Of a DNA stretch of 64,000 nt, positions 5,469-59,057 are shown piece by piece. This stretch comes from Thermoanaerobaculia bacterium. GTDB taxonomy: Bacteria; Acidobacteriota; Thermoanaerobaculia; Multivoradales; J023. The notes below the pieces were generated by a model. That model was not told the DNA's origin, did not search any database, and worked only from the letters and a program-made list of their open reading frames with translations. The stretch spans positions 1 through 64,000 of the forward strand of contig JAUIJL010000014.1 in assembly GCA_030431255.1 (NCBI GenBank), in the 5' to 3' direction. How positions within the stretch are numbered: position 1 is the stretch's first letter; each line of letters starts with the position of its first letter. The translations under genes were made by a program, and so were the position numbers.

Positions 5469-6759
5469 CTATCACTTGATGGTAGACGCTCACGGTCTCT
5501 TGCGCCATCTTTGCCGGGTGGAAGTGGTCGCGAATCGCCGCTTGTCCGGCTTCCGCCAGGGCATGTCGTCGCTTGGGTTGTTGCAACAGCTGGTCCAAGG
5601 CCTCGGCCAGCGCCGACGGTGACTCGGGCTCGAAGAGCAGCCCGCCGTCGGTGTGCTCGATCCACTCCGGAAAGGCGCCGTGGTGGGGCAGCACCACGGG
5701 CACGCCGCAGGCGAGGGCTTCGGGCACGAATCGACCCTTGGGCTCGTGGTAGACCGTGGGCACGGAGAAGACGTCGAGGCTGTTCAAGAAATCGATCTTG
5801 CCCTGACGGTCGACCTCGCCGACCCAATCCACTTGGGCGTCCAGCCCCCGGTCGCGGACCCGCTGTTTGAGCTTTTCCACGTAGGCCTCGTCCTTGGGGC
5901 CGAGGAAGCCGGCGATCCGGAGGGTGAGTCGATCCGCCGGGTATTTGGGCGCCAGCAGCTCGAAGGCTTCCACCAGGTGATGCAGGCCTTTTTCCGGGCA
6001 TTGGCGGGCCAAGTAGCCGATCACCAACGAGTCTTCGTGGGGTGGTTTGATCTTCGAGGACGCGATCAGCTCGTCGCTGTCGATGGACAGGCGGGTGATG
6101 TGCACGCGATCCCTCGGAATGCCGTAGCGCTCGGCCATGAAGTCGGCGTAGTAAACGCAAGGGGCGGTGAAGGCCTCGATTTCGGCGCAGCGTTCCCTGA
6201 CCTCTTTTTCTACCTGGGTTTTGAACGGCTCGACCAAATCCTCGAAAAACAGATCCTCGCCCTGGAGGGCGCAGACCACCGGTATCTTCAGCCGTTCCTG
6301 AATGCGACGGGCAAAGCCGGCGAAGAGGGTGAACGACAGATGCACCACGTCGGGTTGGACCACCTCTTCGAGGAAGTCCACCAATTTATCGAGCTCGCGG
6401 GCCTGGTGGCCTTTTTCCCCCTCGAGCATCGACAGGGTGAGGGCTCCGAGGTCGGCGGCATCGGTGGACGCCTTGCCGGCCATTTTGCCGACCCAGCGCA
6501 GCAGGGTGCGATTGTCGAGCAGGCCGTCGAGGAAGCGGCTGTGGCGGAAGAAACCCTTCTGTTGCAGATAGACGTTCAGCGCGCCGAAGAAGATGTGCTC
6601 GTCCGCGACGTTTTTCTCGTCGGTGCGGGTCGGTGTATAGGTCGGCAGCAAGCTGACCTCATGGCCGCTTTCGATCAACGCCGTGGCCAGGGAGTTGTCC
6701 TGCATGCAGGTCCCGCAATACATGCCCGCGGCACCGGCCGTGATGTAGGCAATGTTCAT
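5461..6759 (-). CDS. Glycosyltransferase family 4 (GT-B fold)
   Basis: A 432-residue enzyme. The N-terminal Rossmann half starts 'MNIAYITAGAAGMYCGTC'. The C-terminal GT4 half contains 'VIGYLARQCPEKGLHHLVEAFELL' and the E-x7-E-type motif in 'EPKGRFVPEALACGVPVVLP', where the glutamates contact the donor nucleotide-sugar. It would transfer an activated sugar to an unknown acceptor. The start is well supported by a GAGGAGGT RBS. It follows the halogenase-like gene by 51 nt on the same strand and probably acts last in the same pathway, although a separate surface-glycan role is possible. A REP-like unit overlaps its 3' end. Confidence 0.88.
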   Translation of the reverse strand: MNIAYITAGAAGMYCGTCMQDNSLATALIESGHEVSLLPTYTPTRTDEKNVADEHIFFGALNVYLQQKGFFRHSRFLDGLLDNRTLLRWVGKMAGKASTDAADLGALTLSMLEGEKGHQARELDKLVDFLEEVVQPDVVHLSFTLFAGFARRIQERLKIPVVCALQGEDLFFEDLVEPFKTQVEKEVRERCAEIEAFTAPCVYYADFMAERYGIPRDRVHITRLSIDSDELIASSKIKPPHEDSLVIGYLARQCPEKGLHHLVEAFELLAPKYPADRLTLRIAGFLGPKDEAYVEKLKQRVRDRGLDAQVDWVGEVDRQGKIDFLNSLDVFSVPTVYHEPKGRFVPEALACGVPVVLPHHGAFPEWIEHTDGGLLFEPESPSALAEALDQLLQQPKRRHALAEAGQAAIRDHFHPAKMAQETVSVYHQVIGT

Positions 6760-49886: not shown

Positions 49887-49962
49887 GGGTCGTTAGCTCA
49901 GTTGGTAGAGCAGCGGACTTTTAATCCGCGGGTCGTAGGTTCGAGACCTACACGACCCACCA
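49887..49962 (+). tRNA. tRNA-Lys (anticodon TTT)
   Basis: A 76-nt cloverleaf. The acceptor stem GGGTCGT/ACGACCC, D-arm, anticodon stem GCGGA/TCCGC with loop CTTTTAA (anticodon TTT), and T-arm GTAGG-TTCGAGA-CCTAC all pair, and CCA is encoded. It borders the accessory island and is a plausible integration target, although no repeat of its 3' end was found downstream. Confidence 0.97.
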
Positions 49963-49996
49963 ATTAAATCGCAGAAAATAAGCCACTTACGGCACT

Positions 49997-50022
49997 AGGG
50001 CGATCCTTCGGGGTCGCCCTTT
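49997..50022 (+). terminator. Intrinsic terminator of tRNA-Lys
   Basis: AGGGCGATCC-TTC-GGGGTCGCCCT forms a stem-loop followed by TTTCT, 35 nt after the tRNA. Confidence 0.8.
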
Positions 50023-50267
50023 CTGCGTTACAGTAAGCACATAGTAAGCAGATGGGAGCGATTCAAGGCGTAGGTAGTGGGGCGTTGTTCATCATCGCTT
50101 CCGACGTTTCAGCTCCTCACCCGCCCGCCTTAGGCTCCGACCGAAGCTCTTCTCAGAACGGAGGGCGTTCCGAGCCGCCGCAGCGATTCCATCTCCCGAA
50201 CACCTTTGCTCCAATACCGGCGCTCAACAGCGTCTCTAGCTCGAGAAAGCGACTGATCGGTCTGTAG

Positions 50268-50281
50268 AATCAGGGGTCGGT
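50268..50281 (+). repeat. Left inverted repeat of peptide/TPR module
   Basis: AATCAGGGGTCGGT, 62 bp before the first peptide ORF. It matches in inverted orientation, 13 of 14 bases, the copy at 51814-51827. Confidence 0.65.
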
Positions 50282-50342
50282 GCATCCTTCTTGATAGCCT
50301 GAGCGGCGAGGCAATTCCGCCTCCAAGTTCAGGAGATCAGAA

Positions 50343-50402
50343 ATGAATCTGCAGACGAATCTGAGATCTGGTGCGCAAGGCTTCATCGTGCCGACGGGTT
50401 AG
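50343..50402 (+). CDS. 19-residue peptide with GAQGxIVxTG core (copy 1)
   Basis: A complete ORF of 19 codons, MNLQTNLRSGAQGFIVPTG, with AGGAGA 7 nt before the ATG. It is too short for the ORF track. Its reality rests on the second copy 180 bp downstream, which has the same length, the same RBS type and the shared C-terminal core. There is no hydrophobic leader, so it would act inside the cell or need a dedicated exporter, as for SHP-type peptides. A 10-bp perfect hairpin follows (50413-50440). Its function is unknown; signalling peptide, precursor peptide or leader peptide are the options. Confidence 0.6.
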   Translation: MNLQTNLRSGAQGFIVPTG

Positions 50403-50412
50403 CCCTTGGAGA

Positions 50413-50440
50413 GGCGGCAGGTGTCGGCATACCTGCCGCC
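50413..50440 (+). terminator. Stem-loop after peptide ORF 1
   Basis: GGCGGCAGGT / ACCTGCCGCC pairs perfectly over 10 bp around an 8-nt loop, 10 nt after the stop. There is no T-run, so it may be an mRNA-stabilising or attenuating structure instead of a true terminator. Confidence 0.5.
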
Positions 50441-50522
50441 TGACGGTAGACCGCCTTTACATCATAGGGCTATGTCCGGATAGCAGGTGACCCCTTGCTG
50501 CCAACTGCGAAAGGAGACTCAG

Positions 50523-50582
50523 ATGAGGGTAGGGACAACCATGAAAACCGGGGCTCAGGGGGTTATCGTCGCGACCGGTTGA
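50523..50582 (+). CDS. 19-residue peptide with GAQGxIVxTG core (copy 2)
   Basis: A complete ORF of 19 codons, MRVGTTMKTGAQGVIVATG, with AAGGAGA 5-6 nt before the ATG. It aligns without gaps to copy 1: identical at M1, T5, G10-A11-Q12-G13, I15-V16 and T18-G19, with conservative R/K, S/T and L/M changes, while third codon positions differ freely. That pattern indicates selection on the peptide. Its 3' end overlaps the 3' end of the convergent TPR gene by 20 nt. Confidence 0.6.
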   Translation: MRVGTTMKTGAQGVIVATG

Positions 50583-51720
50583 TCGGTCCACTTGCCGGAC
50601 ATCGCATGGGAGGCGCCTCCTTCCAGCGCATCATGCTGATCTGCTTCCGAGCGGTCCGGATTTCCTCGGGAGTCTGGGGAAATCGAGAACGCCAAGTCCC
50701 GAGAATCTCCCAGAGCTCTTGGTTTGGCGAGATTCTTTCGAGGTAGCACTTGGTTTCTTCGACAAGAAGAGCATAGGCGGCACGGTCTTCAAAGAGCAGG
50801 TACATACCAGCGAGATCGAGGCTTGCCAGGGTGTATTCCTGGAATTCTTCGAGATCCCGCAGCCCATTGCGAGCCTTCCTGACCAGCCGTTCCCCTTGCT
50901 TGGTAAGTCCCAGATTGAAGGCAATCTTGCCCATATGCCAATTGACCTGCATCTTGGCGATAGATTTGGGTTGTCGACCCATCAGGCTTTTGGCTCGTTC
51001 CAAGTGCCGGTAGGCACGTTCTTGGGCAATCATCGAGGCTGAAGACTCAGAAAGGATCTTCCCGAGACCGTGCAAGGCAGCGATAAGAACTCGACGCCCG
51101 CGTCGGGATTTACGTTTGTCTACAACCAGCCGGACCGCTTCAGCAAGATCGACGAAGCCGTCGCCTGTTTCCAGCATCGTGTGCTTGGCGGCTCCGCGAA
51201 GAACAAGCGCCTCGGCACGAAGCAGCATCTCGATCTGAGTCGATCCTCCACACCGATCAAGCGCAGCCTGAGCCTTCTTGACTGCATCCGGATCGTTCCG
51301 AATAAAGAGCAGCCAGCCGTAGCGACAGTGGAGCTCCGTCAGCGTGGGCGAATCGATCCCGATTTCGGCAAGAGAATACGCGGTGGCGTATAGCTGGCTC
51401 GCCCGCTCGAATTCGCCGACTCTTCGAGCCACGGAAGCAGTAACAAAGCGAGCTCTCACCTGAAACGAACGTTTTTCTTCCTGGCTGCTGTAGCTTCCGT
51501 CTCTTCCGCGAACACCGATTCTTTGATCTGCCAGTGTGATCATGGGCTGTGCCATTTCCAGAGCCGGGCCAGGTCGATGCACGGCTTCGTCATCGATGCG
51601 ATCGAGAAAACGTTGAAGGAATGGGACGTTCCAATAGCTGTCATCGGCCAGGATCCGGTGCGGCCTCTTGACCGCTCTACCGACCAGCAGAGTTGTCCTT
51701 CGATAGGGGGTCGTTGCCAT
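50563..51720 (-). CDS. TPR-repeat protein convergent with the peptide genes
   Basis: The start is the ATG at 51720 (MATTPYRRTTLL); the track start at 51849 would read across the inverted repeat. About 385 residues, almost entirely helical and built of TPR-like units ('ASQLYATAYSLAEIGIDSPTLTELHCRYGWLLF', 'AYRHLERAKSLMGRQPKSIAKMQVNWHMGKIAFNLG', 'YTLASLDLAGMYLLFEDRAAYALLVEETKCYLERI'). The N-terminal 70 residues are basic and non-TPR ('MATTPYRRTTLLVGRAVKRP'), possibly binding DNA or a partner, but no clear HTH is seen. The architecture recalls the TPR receptors of RRNPP systems, whose ligands are short peptides encoded nearby. Confidence 0.72.
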   Translation of the reverse strand: MATTPYRRTTLLVGRAVKRPHRILADDSYWNVPFLQRFLDRIDDEAVHRPGPALEMAQPMITLADQRIGVRGRDGSYSSQEEKRSFQVRARFVTASVARRVGEFERASQLYATAYSLAEIGIDSPTLTELHCRYGWLLFIRNDPDAVKKAQAALDRCGGSTQIEMLLRAEALVLRGAAKHTMLETGDGFVDLAEAVRLVVDKRKSRRGRRVLIAALHGLGKILSESSASMIAQERAYRHLERAKSLMGRQPKSIAKMQVNWHMGKIAFNLGLTKQGERLVRKARNGLRDLEEFQEYTLASLDLAGMYLLFEDRAAYALLVEETKCYLERISPNQELWEILGTWRSRFPQTPEEIRTARKQISMMRWKEAPPMRCPASGPINRSRR

Positions 51721-51813
51721 TAGGTCACCAAAATGCTGCTCTGGATGCTGAAGAAGCCGGAAATCAAGTCGAGAATGATAATACAAAATGACAAGGAGAT
51801 CCCGATACGGTGA

Positions 51814-51827
51814 ACTGACCCCTGATT
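51814..51827 (-). repeat. Right inverted repeat of peptide/TPR module
   Basis: On the minus strand AATCAGGGGTCAGT, 94 bp upstream of the TPR start. It is the counterpart of the copy at 50268. A related TGACCCCTGG lies at 51963. Confidence 0.65.
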
Positions 51828-51976
51828 TTGCGATCCGAGGGATCTTCAAGGTCGGCAGAAGGTACGGGAAATAGTGGTCCGGTTGTTGCCGAGTCCTAGA
51901 CTCCGCTCACCATCAACACATTGGGAGTCTGTGTTGAGCCACTTCCGCAGGCTCCCTATTTTTGACCCCTGGTGAG

Positions 51977-52582
51977 ATGAGCCACGAATTCCACCTTGCC
52001 GACTTCGCCACTGCCCCGACTGAGCTTGAGCTCGAACCAAGGCATCTGGAGCATTTGATCTCTGCCTTGCTGCGCGCCGAGAACCCGCGCTCCCTGCGCG
52101 TGCTCTTCTGGCTGCTGCTGCAAACGGTCGCAGCCAAGCCTGAGCTCCTGGCGAAACTGAACGAGGACTGGCTGCCTACAGAACCAGATCTCGCCCAGCT
52201 CCTGGAAGATGCAGGCAAGGACGGAACCTGGGCGGTTCTTTCGCTGGAAGGCTTGGAAGGACGGCTGGAACGGCTCTGGCAGCTCAGTGACGATGCGGGC
52301 CTGGCGAACCTCACCAGATCATCGGATCCCTGGGAAATGGTCTCCGTCGCGCCCATGGCCGCCCTCTACGCCGAGCGCCAACTCGATGAGCTCATTGCGG
52401 CAGTGGCCCAGGGGCGACAGTGGAAAGATCCTGCGGAGATCTTGAACCCGGACGGCGAGCAGGAATTCGATCTCGAAGCCATGATCGGCTTGGCAGAAGC
52501 ACGGATGGTGCGGACCGAGGGCGGGGAAGCGTTGAACCTGGTGGTTTTATGCCTGATGAATTATGCGGATCGGGTGAATTAG
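51977..52582 (+). CDS. Hypothetical helical protein of the island
   Basis: Read from ATG 51977 (MSHEFHLADF); the track's TTG start 15 nt earlier sits in the repeat-like sequence. 201 residues, mostly amphipathic helix with many Leu/Glu ('PRHLEHLISALLRAENPRSLRVLFWLLLQTVAAKPELLAKLNEDWLP'), acidic overall, with no signal peptide or TM. I do not recognise a family. It precedes the coupling ATPase on the same strand and may be part of the conjugation module. Confidence 0.6.
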   Translation: MSHEFHLADFATAPTELELEPRHLEHLISALLRAENPRSLRVLFWLLLQTVAAKPELLAKLNEDWLPTEPDLAQLLEDAGKDGTWAVLSLEGLEGRLERLWQLSDDAGLANLTRSSDPWEMVSVAPMAALYAERQLDELIAAVAQGRQWKDPAEILNPDGEQEFDLEAMIGLAEARMVRTEGGEALNLVVLCLMNYADRVN

Positions 52583-52835: not shown

Positions 52836-54224
52836 TTGGTTGGACTCTTCCAATCCCGAGTCCATGGCGATGCTCGCTGGATGTCCAGTCGGGAACGTCG
52901 TCGCTTCCTGACACCCCACCATCAGGGATCGGTTCTCGGCAAAGACCAACGGCTCAGCCTTGAAGACTCCTTCCGCAATCTCGTCTTGGTCGCGCCGACG
53001 GGATCGGGAAAGACCACGCGGTATGTGATCCCAAACGTCTTGCTCGCCCAAGGCTCGGTAGTGGTGACCGATCCATCGGGGGAGATTTTTGAGAAAACGT
53101 CCGGCCACCTGCACGATCGCGGATTCCGTATCGAGGTGTTGCAACCAGCCAAGCTGGAAGAGAGCCTCCAATTCAATCCCTTGCACTATTGGCAGACACC
53201 ACAACAACTGCGGCAGCTTTCCACAATCCTCGCCAAGGGTATCGCTGGGGCAAATAGTGATCCCTTCTGGACGACGTCGGCGATCAACGTGCTCTTCTTT
53301 GGTCTGGCGGCTATCACGAAAGTTGACGACAAGCGGCTCGTCCATCTCGCCAATCTTCGCCTGTTGCTGAATCATCTCGATGCCGAGAGCAAACGGGTGG
53401 AGCGCTTCATGGCGCGGTATCTCGGGACCAATAGCCACTCGACACTGTTCTCGGAATACCGGGCCTTTCAGCTCATGGACGGCCGTGTGAAGGCTTCAAT
53501 TCTCGCGACGGCAAGGGCAGCACTGGATCTCTGGTCGGATGAATCGGTGGCGAAACTGACGGCAGCGAACACGGTCGACTTGCATTCGTTGCGGAAGGAA
53601 CAGACAGCGCTGTACCTGATCGTCCCCGAGCATCAAGTCGGCTATTTCGGGCCACTCGCGAATCTCTTCTACGCCACCTGCTTCCAGATCTGTCTCGAAT
53701 CCGGTGACGATCCTCAAGACCTCCCGGTGTTCTTTCTCCTTGATGAATTCGGGAATCTCGGCTACGTCCATGACTTCGCGGCCATGATCACTACCCTGCG
53801 CAAGCGGCGTTGCTCGGTGAGTCTGATCATCCAAGAGTTGTCTCAGCTGCGAGCGGTCTACGGTGAAGACGGAGCACGAACGATCTTTTCTGGTGGCGCC
53901 GCGAACAAGCTCTTCTTCTCCGGTCTCGATCTGGAGACGGCTCAGTACGTGGAGCAGTCACTGGGCAAAAATACGGAATATGACACGACCTTCGGTGGCA
54001 TCGACGAAGCTTCGCGTACCCTGAGCGTGCCGCTGATGTATGCGGATCAGATCCGGCGGATGAGTCGAAACAAGGCGATCCTGATCTCGGGGCGGCAGAA
54101 GCCGGTGAGGTTTGAGGTGGGGGCGTATTTCCAGGCGGGGAAGTTGAGGGAGATGGCGGAGAAGGCGAGCTTTGTGATGGCGAGAGGGCAGAGTGGGGAA
54201 CCGGAGTTTCTGGATTTGGGCTGA
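52836..54224 (+). CDS. VirD4/TraG-type conjugal coupling ATPase, N-terminally short
   Basis: 462 residues from a TTG. 'HGDARWMSSRE' is the conserved segment just before the nucleotide-binding domain. Walker A is APTGSGKT (53-60), followed by 'VVVTDPSGEIFE'. Walker B is 'VFFLLDEFGNLGY', and 'IIQELSQLRAVYG' and 'ISGRQKPVRFEVG' are further T4CP motifs. It docks relaxase-DNA complexes to a secretion channel. Typical T4CPs have two N-terminal TM helices; here an in-frame TAG lies immediately upstream, and hydrophobic stretches upstream fall in another frame, so the membrane anchor is missing or frameshifted. Confidence 0.85.
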   Translation: MVGLFQSRVHGDARWMSSRERRRFLTPHHQGSVLGKDQRLSLEDSFRNLVLVAPTGSGKTTRYVIPNVLLAQGSVVVTDPSGEIFEKTSGHLHDRGFRIEVLQPAKLEESLQFNPLHYWQTPQQLRQLSTILAKGIAGANSDPFWTTSAINVLFFGLAAITKVDDKRLVHLANLRLLLNHLDAESKRVERFMARYLGTNSHSTLFSEYRAFQLMDGRVKASILATARAALDLWSDESVAKLTAANTVDLHSLRKEQTALYLIVPEHQVGYFGPLANLFYATCFQICLESGDDPQDLPVFFLLDEFGNLGYVHDFAAMITTLRKRRCSVSLIIQELSQLRAVYGEDGARTIFSGGAANKLFFSGLDLETAQYVEQSLGKNTEYDTTFGGIDEASRTLSVPLMYADQIRRMSRNKAILISGRQKPVRFEVGAYFQAGKLREMAEKASFVMARGQSGEPEFLDLG

Positions 54225-57442: not shown

Positions 57443-58318
57443 CTAACGACCGAAATCCACTCCGCAACCACGTACTTGTCGTCGGCCTTTCCGAAGCCCA
57501 GTGGACCCAAGGGCCTCTCTAGCGCGTTGCCACTGCCACTGCGCTGATTCAAACACCTCCGCCAACCCCAACGTTTTCAACCGATACCGCCGACCGTTCT
57601 CCACGTCCTCCACCCCGGCACTCTTCCCGCGCTTGTACAGGCGCAACCCTTTCTTCAACAACCGCCGGAAACACTCCGCTCCAGTCGTCGCCACCGCTAG
57701 CTCAGCACGAACCAAACCGGCTACCATCTCTTTCCGCGTCGACCGCCGATCTCCCCGTCGCTTCCTTTCTCTCTCACCGCGACTCAGGTGCAGCCTCGAT
57801 GATGCCGGTAGCGATCTCGATTTCACTTTCACCCCACCCTGCGCCACCGAATGCCCAAGGAACGGATACCGCTCCCGCTGATATCGCTCCACCTCTCTCT
57901 GAATCGACCGAAAATCACACCTCGATAACCTCAAGCGCCGCGAGCTGCCGACATTATTCGCCGAAATCACCACATGGACATGGGGGCACTCCGTATTGAA
58001 ATGCCCCCGCGCATACGCCAACGCATACGGCGCCCGCAGATCCAAATATCGGCGCACCAAATCCTCCATCATCGGTACCGTCACCGATTCCCGATCCTCC
58101 TGCCCGAAACTCAAGATCTCGTGGTAGAGCACATTTCCATTCTTTCGCCGCTTCAAGCACCCGGCATTGGCGAAAAACTCCCGACGGATCCCGTCGAGAT
58201 CATTTTCCTGAGCCTTCACATTGTGGAGCCAAGCGGGGCCGACAGATTCCGGGGCATTCACATACCGCAGCAGCTGCCCGAAGGTCTTACTCTTCCTCGA
58301 CATCGATTTGATGATCAT
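57443..58318 (-). CDS. Relaxase / mobilization nuclease
   Basis: About 291 residues from ATG 58318 (MIIKSMSRKSKTF), typical of this family's start; the track begins 5 codons earlier. 'SFGQL..Y' style N-terminus ('SKTFGQLLRYVNAPES'), then 'ILSFGQEDRESVTVPMMEDLVRRYLDLRAPYALAYARGHFNTECPHVHVVISAN' with the HxH metal-binding motif (HVH) typical of MobA/VirD2-class relaxases. The basic C-terminus is rich in Arg. It should nick oriT and stay bound to the transferred strand through a Tyr; the likely Tyr is in 'LLRYV'. It is coupled to the MobC-like gene by a 32-nt overlap. Confidence 0.87.
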   Translation of the reverse strand: MIIKSMSRKSKTFGQLLRYVNAPESVGPAWLHNVKAQENDLDGIRREFFANAGCLKRRKNGNVLYHEILSFGQEDRESVTVPMMEDLVRRYLDLRAPYALAYARGHFNTECPHVHVVISANNVGSSRRLRLSRCDFRSIQREVERYQRERYPFLGHSVAQGGVKVKSRSLPASSRLHLSRGERERKRRGDRRSTRKEMVAGLVRAELAVATTGAECFRRLLKKGLRLYKRGKSAGVEDVENGRRYRLKTLGLAEVFESAQWQWQRAREALGSTGLRKGRRQVRGCGVDFGR

Positions 58319-58664
58319 GGGGCAAAGATTCAAGAGCCTGACGCAACACCAACACCAAACGCTCCATCATGATCACCAACTGCGCCGCCTTCCGGAGATC
58401 GTCATGAGTTAACCGCTGATACGTTTTCGCCCGCTTGGCGATCTGATTCAGATTCGTCCCCACTCTTCTGACCTCCTGGACAATCTTGGTCAAATGCTTC
58501 TCCAAGGAGGACGGCAACAACGACCGTCGATCGAGATAGGCCAACGCCGCATCGCGGACAAAAGGAGCGAGCCGAGAATTGAATTGTTGAGCGACCTGCT
58601 GGAGCCGAAAGAACTGCTCAGGATGAAGATTGCAGGTGACGCGGTGGGTGTAGGTTCCGTGCAT
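58287..58664 (-). CDS. MobC-like relaxosome accessory protein
   Basis: 125 residues from ATG 58664 (MHGTYTHRVT); the track start lies 42 codons upstream without support. 'THRVTCNLHPEQFFRLQQVAQQFNSRLAPFVRDAALAYL' looks like a ribbon-helix-helix DNA-binding start. 'VQEVRRVGTNLNQIAKRAKTYQRLT' is the MobC signature ('R.GNNLNQIA' type). It binds oriT and assists the relaxase encoded immediately downstream. Confidence 0.82.
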   Translation of the reverse strand: MHGTYTHRVTCNLHPEQFFRLQQVAQQFNSRLAPFVRDAALAYLDRRSLLPSSLEKHLTKIVQEVRRVGTNLNQIAKRAKTYQRLTHDDLRKAAQLVIMMERLVLVLRQALESLPHDHQIDVEEE

Positions 58665-59057
58665 GGGGTGAGAATAAAAAGGGAAAAGTCTCCGAGTAGG
58701 TAAACGAAGCCAACGGCTCAGAGTCCCCAATATCGAAGAGACGCGACCCACCCTAACGACCCCTGAATCTCCCGCAAACCCTCTCGGCATCTGGGCTGCC
58801 GAAAACTCCTGCCAACCGGAAAAAAGTCGGGAAATTTAAGGCTGGTTTAGGAGAGCTTAAGTATTCACTAAGCGTTCGGGTGGAACCATCGGTTAGTCCA
58901 TGCCTTCCAAAGCAAGAAGCGTTTTCGTTTTGTTGATATGCCTGGTCCATGAGCCTGGTTGCAAGATAAAACCGCGTTTACGAATAGGGAGAAAGTGAAG
59001 ATGCCCTGGCACTTCTTGCTTTCTTCAAATTGTCCTGAGCCCCAAAATGTTTAGAGA
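58665..59057. other. Candidate oriT region upstream of mob genes
   Basis: A 393-nt gene-free stretch ahead of the mobC-relaxase pair. It holds an 11-bp perfect inverted repeat AAAGCAAGAAG (58909-58919) / CTTCTTGCTTT (59012-59022) and a GCCTGGT direct repeat between the arms. Position and structure make it the best place for a transfer origin, but no known nic consensus was recognised. Confidence 0.35.

Follow-up and report, generated by a model that had tools for sequence, protein, structure and literature searches.

Two short open reading frames in the genome of a Thermoanaerobaculia bacterium run towards the 3' end of a gene for a TPR protein, and the question that they raise is whether they encode signal peptides for that protein. 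Short peptide genes beside a TPR receptor are the hallmark of the RRNPP systems of Firmicutes, and an earlier note, made from the DNA letters alone, had read the locus by that analogy as a peptide-receptor signalling module. We analysed a window of 64,000 nt (by "the window" we mean this whole stretch of DNA), taken from contig JAUIJL010000014.1 of assembly GCA_030431255.1, together with related loci elsewhere; the features are listed in Table 1.

Table 1. Features of the window (nucleotide positions) and of related loci (locus names).
Feature	Position or locus	Strand or orientation	Basis or remark
tRNA-Lys (anticodon TTT), integration target	49887..49962	+	ARAGORN
Left attachment-type repeat, covering the tRNA 3' half and about 128 bp more	49917..50090	+	
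Palindrome-like ACTGATCGGT, 91 bp ahead of peptide 1 start	50252..50261	.	consensus ACCGATCGGT elsewhere
28-bp element upstream of peptide 1	50257..50284	+	75% identical to arm 51811-51838
-10-like TAGAAT	50265-50270		after palindrome-like element
Peptide gene 1, MNLQTNLRSGAQGFIVPTG, 19 aa	50343..50402	+	ORF behind AGGAGA at 50331-50336
Peptide gene 2, MRVGTTMKTGAQGVIVATG, 19 aa	50523..50582	+	ORF behind AGGAGA at 50512-50517
TPR protein, 385 aa, putative peptide receptor	50563..51720	-	fold model; paralogues beside homologous peptides
28-bp element upstream of TPR gene	51811..51838	-	repeat pair with 50257-50284
201-aa protein of unknown function, divergent from TPR gene	51977..52582	+	
VirD4/TraG coupling protein	52836..54224	+	PF02534, E 4.4e-68
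Relaxase and MobC mobilisation genes	57443..58790	-	PF03432 and PF05713
19-aa-type ORF MNVQTTVIAGLPGLIIPNG	L005, window's own genome	convergent with TPR gene	
ORFs homologous to window peptides: MNVQTNVVAGLGAMVVPVG, MQVHTNVVAGLGAAVVPIG, MQVSSQVRAGAGPMIIPVG, MTVKTLVRSGHGPYIVPEG, MRINTGLKAGNGPLVTPEG	at TPR paralogues		
Further such ORFs: MHVTTAVRSGHGPGIIPSG, MLVSTAVRAGSGPSLIPSG, MNVVTNFRAGVGPGVEPFG, MLVKTALQSGAGPGVTPIG	at TPR paralogues		
Longer precursor, ...GPGMVPIG	L004, window's own genome		
Longer precursor, ...GPLIIPNG	L007		
Longer precursor, ...GPFVIPDG	L012		
Longer precursor, MTSRRIAALLLLVCPLTSAAFA...GPVIYPTG, and its orthologue	L008/L009		
Longer precursor, ...GPMLEPSG	L103		
Protein X loci	L058, L060, L061, L062, L063, L066, L067, L069, L133		

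The description of the two frames given in the earlier note held in every respect. Each is 60 nt long including its stop codon and follows an AGGAGA-type ribosome-binding site, their starts are 180 bp apart, and both are oriented tail-to-tail with the TPR gene, the 3' end of which is overlapped by peptide gene 2 over 20 nt. The products share the core GAQGxIVxTG, within which six of the eight identical codons differ between the two genes, in each case in the third base. When the last 11 codons are compared, codon positions 1, 2 and 3 show 2, 1 and 8 differences. No DNA repeat outside the frames accounts for the exact 180-bp spacing, for which there is no further support. By the comparative evidence presented below, both frames are real genes, for which there are no expression data.

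The earlier note had proposed a search for GAQG.IV.TG frames near homologues of the TPR gene, and had held that its reading would fail if other copies of that gene lacked short frames or if the frames were not under coding selection. The exact pattern proved too strict: it occurs only at the two window sites in the window's own genome, and is absent from all 118 related genomes searched, so conservation had to be sought with a looser motif. Paralogues of the TPR protein are encoded in the same genome and in three other genomes of the family, and the flanks of these genes hold homologous frames, mostly of exactly 19 codons and with strong ribosome-binding sites; peptide gene 1, for example, is homologous to 19-aa frames at the TPR genes of loci L005 (MNVQTTVIAGLPGLIIPNG) and L010 (MNVQTNVVAGLGAMVVPVG). 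Homologous pairs differ mostly at third positions (3/2/10 and 5/3/10 differences at codon positions 1/2/3), and most close paralogues have a homologous 19-aa frame or a longer precursor beside them, such that neither ground for rejecting the reading was met. In the window's genus the peptide gene is mostly convergent with the TPR gene (three of four loci in the window's genome), and in genus g3 it lies directly upstream on the same strand. The comparison shows that the window's two frames are members of a family of short peptides adjoining TPR genes in one order of the Acidobacteriota, a family that is new as far as the literature searched shows.

The precursors of this family end in GPx[IV]xPxG immediately before the stop codon, and their genes lie next to those of a large TPR protein family. 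At some TPR loci the precursors are longer; they finish in the same way at the C-terminus and begin with a stretch resembling a Sec signal peptide. These N-termini, which we judged by eye without a predictor, have a hydrophobic core and an AxA-type site in paralogous precursors encoded at equivalent positions, and comparison shows them in some precursors only. The long precursors, of at least 64-70 aa, have only the C-terminus in common. It is also shown that the C-terminal motif is repeated in tandem, with two to five copies in some precursors (L085, L107, L115, L120); tandem motif copies and a signal-like N-terminus are features of pheromone precursors. Secretion of the family's peptides is likely, with export itself an inference. 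No Sec signal can be recognised in any of the 19-aa peptides, the window's two included, and their export route is unknown.

Three further arrangements were observed. At L066, two short frames on the plus strand, MKVQTKIKAGPEIRQPR and MKVQTKIKAGPDIQQPKG (positions 5571 and 5724, 153 bp apart), have the N-terminal motif of the other short frames and a C-terminus unlike theirs. Frames near TPR genes in family f3 (MKIKSSVQAGRGATIGGGG at L042, MKIKTSLSAGDDASITNSG at L043 and MKIKTSLRAGEGSRPVGGEP at L050) likewise retain the N-terminal motif and not the C-terminal one. At L143 (G020:C7, 6911-7456), two repeat-bearing precursors overlap on opposite strands, one with GPxIDPxG repeats and the other with GGxxDPNG repeats; the TPR gene closest to them lies at a distance of about 2.6 kb and forms a pair with an XRE regulator.

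A referee might ask whether short frames of this kind would be found beside any gene. Among 25 TPR loci picked by TPR similarity alone, 16 have a motif frame, compared with a mean of 0.5 and a maximum of 5 in order-2 Markov simulations (n=100), and none was found in 120 kb of control DNA. The count of 16 excludes the window, since the window's two peptides miss the regular expression. About one-third of close TPR loci, and most of the distant ones, have no recognised peptide. We also ran a DNA pattern of the 19-aa form against a collection in which each of 85,462 species is represented by a single genome. The nine matches come exclusively from two MAGs of the window's family. Seven of the nine are within 400 bp of a TPR gene (P < 1e-6, even on the assumption of 350 TPR genes per genome), and the other two have no TPR gene in the DNA retrieved. 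We consider the linkage of these peptides to TPR genes to be shown.

The anchoring of the motif at the C-terminus is shown by two further comparisons. The pattern GPx[hydrophobic]DP[N/D-like]G-stop had 28 matches in 147 genomes of the class and none for a reversed control; all 28 have a true stop and are confined to families having the TPR family, and a search of 396 phylum genomes gave no match beyond the order. For a looser pattern, a TPR gene is nearby in 29 of 47 cases with a true stop, compared with 1 of 12 cases ending in TGG (Fisher P 0.001); the loci in this comparison overlap between searches, and not all are independent. Receptor and peptide similarities covary (r about 0.7 for the 19-aa set, significant), mostly through orthologues, and without orthologues r is 0.26 (P = 0.055). 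Because it is largely due to orthologues, we do not take this covariation as proof of cognate pairing.

All family members found are from Acidobacteriota. A search of genome and viral collections with the single TPR protein as query gave no confirmed related locus, and searches of phages, plasmids and IMG/VR gave no match.

The peptide genes also share a promoter element, as comparison shows. The palindrome ACCGATCGGT lies at -87 to -98 (mostly 91 bp) from the start codon at most loci with an upstream-type arrangement, precedes short and long precursors alike, and has five exact copies in 157 kb, all in peptide promoters. There is no copy ahead of peptide gene 2 in the window, which may be carried on the same transcript as peptide gene 1; this is an inference only. 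We also tried the palindrome alone as a genome-wide marker and rejected it as unspecific, most 11-bp matches lying elsewhere, without a peptide. Its reversed-pattern control is biased because the pattern contains CTAG, and the palindrome is informative solely in its 12-bp form with fixed spacing.

The AlphaFold2 model of the window's TPR protein is an all-helical superhelix of 17 helices (pLDDT 86.6, pTM 0.83), with three helices ahead of the TPR repeats. Among PDB structures, Foldseek ranks Rap-pLS20 with Phr and the Rap of phage phi3T first (E 2.6e-5 to 1e-4, TM about 0.5); LGN and APPBP2, which are likewise peptide-binding TPR proteins, score only slightly lower. A sequence-profile search of the PDB gave generic TPR matches, in which Rap105 (E 1.4e-6) ranked under designed TPRs, OGT and kinesin light chain; the matches in a viral structure library were generic TPR matches only, and AimR was absent from them. 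The Rap-like fold match is modest: it supports a peptide-binding role for the predicted structure, in the absence of binding data, and does not demonstrate RRNPP descent. We recognised no Pfam HTH and no output domain in the window's protein. At the HNLA motif, it has Gly where nearly all of its relatives have Asn.

The module lies at the end of a mobile element integrated at a tRNA-Lys gene. A second copy of the attachment-type repeat (174 bp, 97.7% identical) lies 38.7 kb downstream, at C39:88653-88826. Since the DNA between the repeats carries conjugation and mobilisation genes together with Mu-type genes (portal, virion, minor tail and amidase), we regard the element as mosaic; it also encodes RadC, and none of the proteins scanned was identified as an integrase. 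A TIR-domain protein is encoded within the mosaic element (window 49917 to C39:88826), at L154:10423-11397. Right after the second repeat (G000:C39:88653-91084 = L155:4653-7084) is another TPR gene, with its own 19-aa upstream peptide, MTVKSQVQSGQMGGLTPIG. The product of this gene has no significant BLASTP similarity to the window's TPR protein, and beside the gene and its peptide, C39:90479-91084 encodes the 201-aa protein a second time, with 79% identity. In both of the adjacent elements, the receptor cassette has the 201-aa gene as its conserved neighbour, and the presence of a different TPR gene and peptide beside it shows that the cassette has been exchanged between elements sharing this end. 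The second element also carries an IS21-type IstB ATPase gene (L155:13373-14143).

Some homologues of the receptor have domains, or neighbours, that could provide an output. At L151 and L157, receptors with HTH_31/HTH_3-like N-termini, which are sub-threshold matches (HTH_31 E 3e-4), are encoded convergently with repeat-bearing precursors; an HTH_18 domain is fused to the TPR homologue at L027, and at L143 an XRE protein adjoins the TPR gene. More distant TPR families have zf-HC2-like zinc-finger N-termini, again sub-threshold. At L146 (G050:C60, 2868-5226), one strand carries in succession the gene for a precursor in which GAGLDPNG occurs three times, that for an ECF sigma factor and that for a receptor with a putative zinc-finger N-terminus; this row is possibly a peptide-responsive anti-sigma system. 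In genus g3, a helical protein of about 170 aa (protein X) is encoded divergently from the peptide/TPR pair at nine loci, with the palindrome, wherever present, located between X and the peptide gene. Protein X has no Pfam match, and its predicted structure, of moderate confidence, has no fold match in the PDB. It was not seen in the window, where the divergent neighbour is the 201-aa protein.

We propose that the module is a short-range receptor-peptide signalling cassette that works like RRNPP systems (Rap-Phr, PlcR-PapR or Rgg-SHP of Firmicutes) in a Gram-negative phylum. We consider this likely, with export, processing, uptake, binding and regulatory target all inferred. Peptides 1 and 2 would be signal precursors, with the conserved C-terminal 8-10 residues as the active ligand (AQGFIVPTG and AQGVIVATG in the window, GPxIIPxG in relatives). 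The precursor would be exported and then trimmed, and the peptide would re-enter through an oligopeptide transporter; uptake is possible given the 13 SBP_bac_5 matches in the genome. Inside the cell, the peptide may bind the groove of the cytoplasmic TPR receptor and alter the receptor's action on a partner. With the attachment site to one side of the receptor gene and the genes for coupling protein and relaxase to the other, control of the element is a likely output, and this might be exerted through the divergent 201-aa protein. The signalling module suggested in the earlier note is also supported by the precursor N-termini, the tandem motifs, the promoter element and the Rap-like fold, its biochemistry remaining inferred. 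The analogy with RRNPP systems is supported as a likeness of working, and membership by descent is not established. Neither the location in a mobile element, nor the longer precursors, nor the variety of output domains had been noticed there.

The alternative that survives best, although we think it unlikely, is an intracellular pair without export, in which the TPR protein would have the peptide as a small regulatory subunit, or as an inhibitor, that is made in the cell where it acts. No signal sequence can be recognised in the 19-aa forms, and the coupling of motif to stop codon is tight, as would be expected of a C-terminus clamped in a TPR groove. However, paralogous precursors combine signal-peptide-like N-termini with the same C-terminal motif, and the tandem motif copies are better explained by extracellular processing. 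Less likely still, and rejected here, is the possibility that the peptides are natural-product or bacteriocin precursors (RiPPs), with the TPR protein as a regulator, immunity or maturation partner. Short precursors with a conserved C-terminal core, many divergent paralogues and some tandem cores would fit, but no modification enzyme or transporter recurs in the 23 neighbourhoods compared; only the TPR family, protein X, protein kinases and a response regulator are recurrent. Leader peptides (uORFs) controlling translation or transcription of the TPR gene are suggested by the genus g3 arrangement, with the frame directly upstream on the same strand, but are largely refuted by the convergent arrangement that prevails in the window's genome, and by the long precursors, which have just the C-terminus in common; we regard this explanation as almost ruled out. 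Chance frames with a chance resemblance can be dismissed with at least equal assurance, since, common as 19-codon frames are in any sequence, the motif statistics and the whole-database scan refute this reading, and the third-position differences and fixed promoter spacing also count against it.

Beyond the signalling cassette that we favour, a bolder reading is that Gram-negative Acidobacteriota have a large, independently evolved peptide-signalling network, with many diverged peptide/TPR pairs per genome sharing a C-terminal GPxIxPxG code, receptors with varied outputs (HTH, anti-sigma/ECF sigma, HTH-less), and mobile elements that carry the pairs as exchangeable cassettes. We consider this as likely to be wrong as right.

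Intracellular peptide sensing by TPR receptors has so far been a matter of Firmicutes, their phages and plasmids, and the large RRNPP surveys in the literature that we searched are limited to Firmicutes and viruses (PMC10075063, PMC9765709). The earlier note knew of no description of such a module in this kind of organism; we found none in the open-access literature, where no paper combined RRNPP with Acidobacteria and no title or abstract retrieved with other topic combinations describes such a system. Subscription papers and preprints lay outside this search, and an earlier description is not excluded. If our reading is correct, a Gram-negative system raises the question of how the peptides cross two membranes, mobile elements of Acidobacteriota may count their neighbours, and a ready list of candidate signals is available for a little-studied phylum. 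The linkage between peptides and TPR genes is strong enough for direct testing with synthetic peptides.

How closely does the module resemble known systems? Two RRNPP(A) features are met: a receptor that is a TPR superhelix, according to the model, and a small precursor gene adjoining the receptor gene. The range of RRNPP(A) systems, Firmicutes and their mobile elements, is not met, but this is a known range and no mechanistic criterion. The row at L146, in which the ECF sigma gene stands between the peptide gene and the gene for a putative zinc-finger receptor, recalls ECF sigma/zinc-finger anti-sigma pairs; however, the usual anti-sigma factor has a membrane or ligand domain rather than a TPR array and a peptide gene, the window's protein has no zf-HC2 domain, and the match in its homologues is sub-threshold. 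L151 and L157 resemble PlcR-PapR, NprR-NprX and AimR-AimP in combining an HTH-like N-terminus, TPRs and a precursor with a repeated core, and repeated cores and multiple precursor genes are known in RRNPPA systems (PMC9765709); in these two cases, however, the HTH is below the curated cut-off, no sequence relation between the receptors has been shown, and the peptide motifs are unrelated. Rgg-SHP and ComR-ComS share with the window precursors of about 20 aa that lack a classical signal peptide and are encoded upstream of, or convergently with, the receptor gene. Strong hydrophobicity and export by PptAB characterise SHPs (PMC7564271, PMC9765709), whereas the peptides described here are not strongly hydrophobic, and Rgg and ComR have an N-terminal HTH, which we did not recognise in the window's receptor. 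Rap-Phr systems differ in that Phr precursors are about 40 aa long with a signal sequence, whereas the window's two are 19 aa without one; the phylum and the peptide motif are different, and the window's system has no known Spo0F or ComA partner. Nonetheless, Rap-Phr systems, including Rap-pLS20, are like the window in having a TPR receptor without a recognisable HTH, an adjacent peptide gene, and a location on mobile elements with conjugation genes; RapI-PhrI of ICEBs1 is a Rap-Phr pair on such a mobile element.
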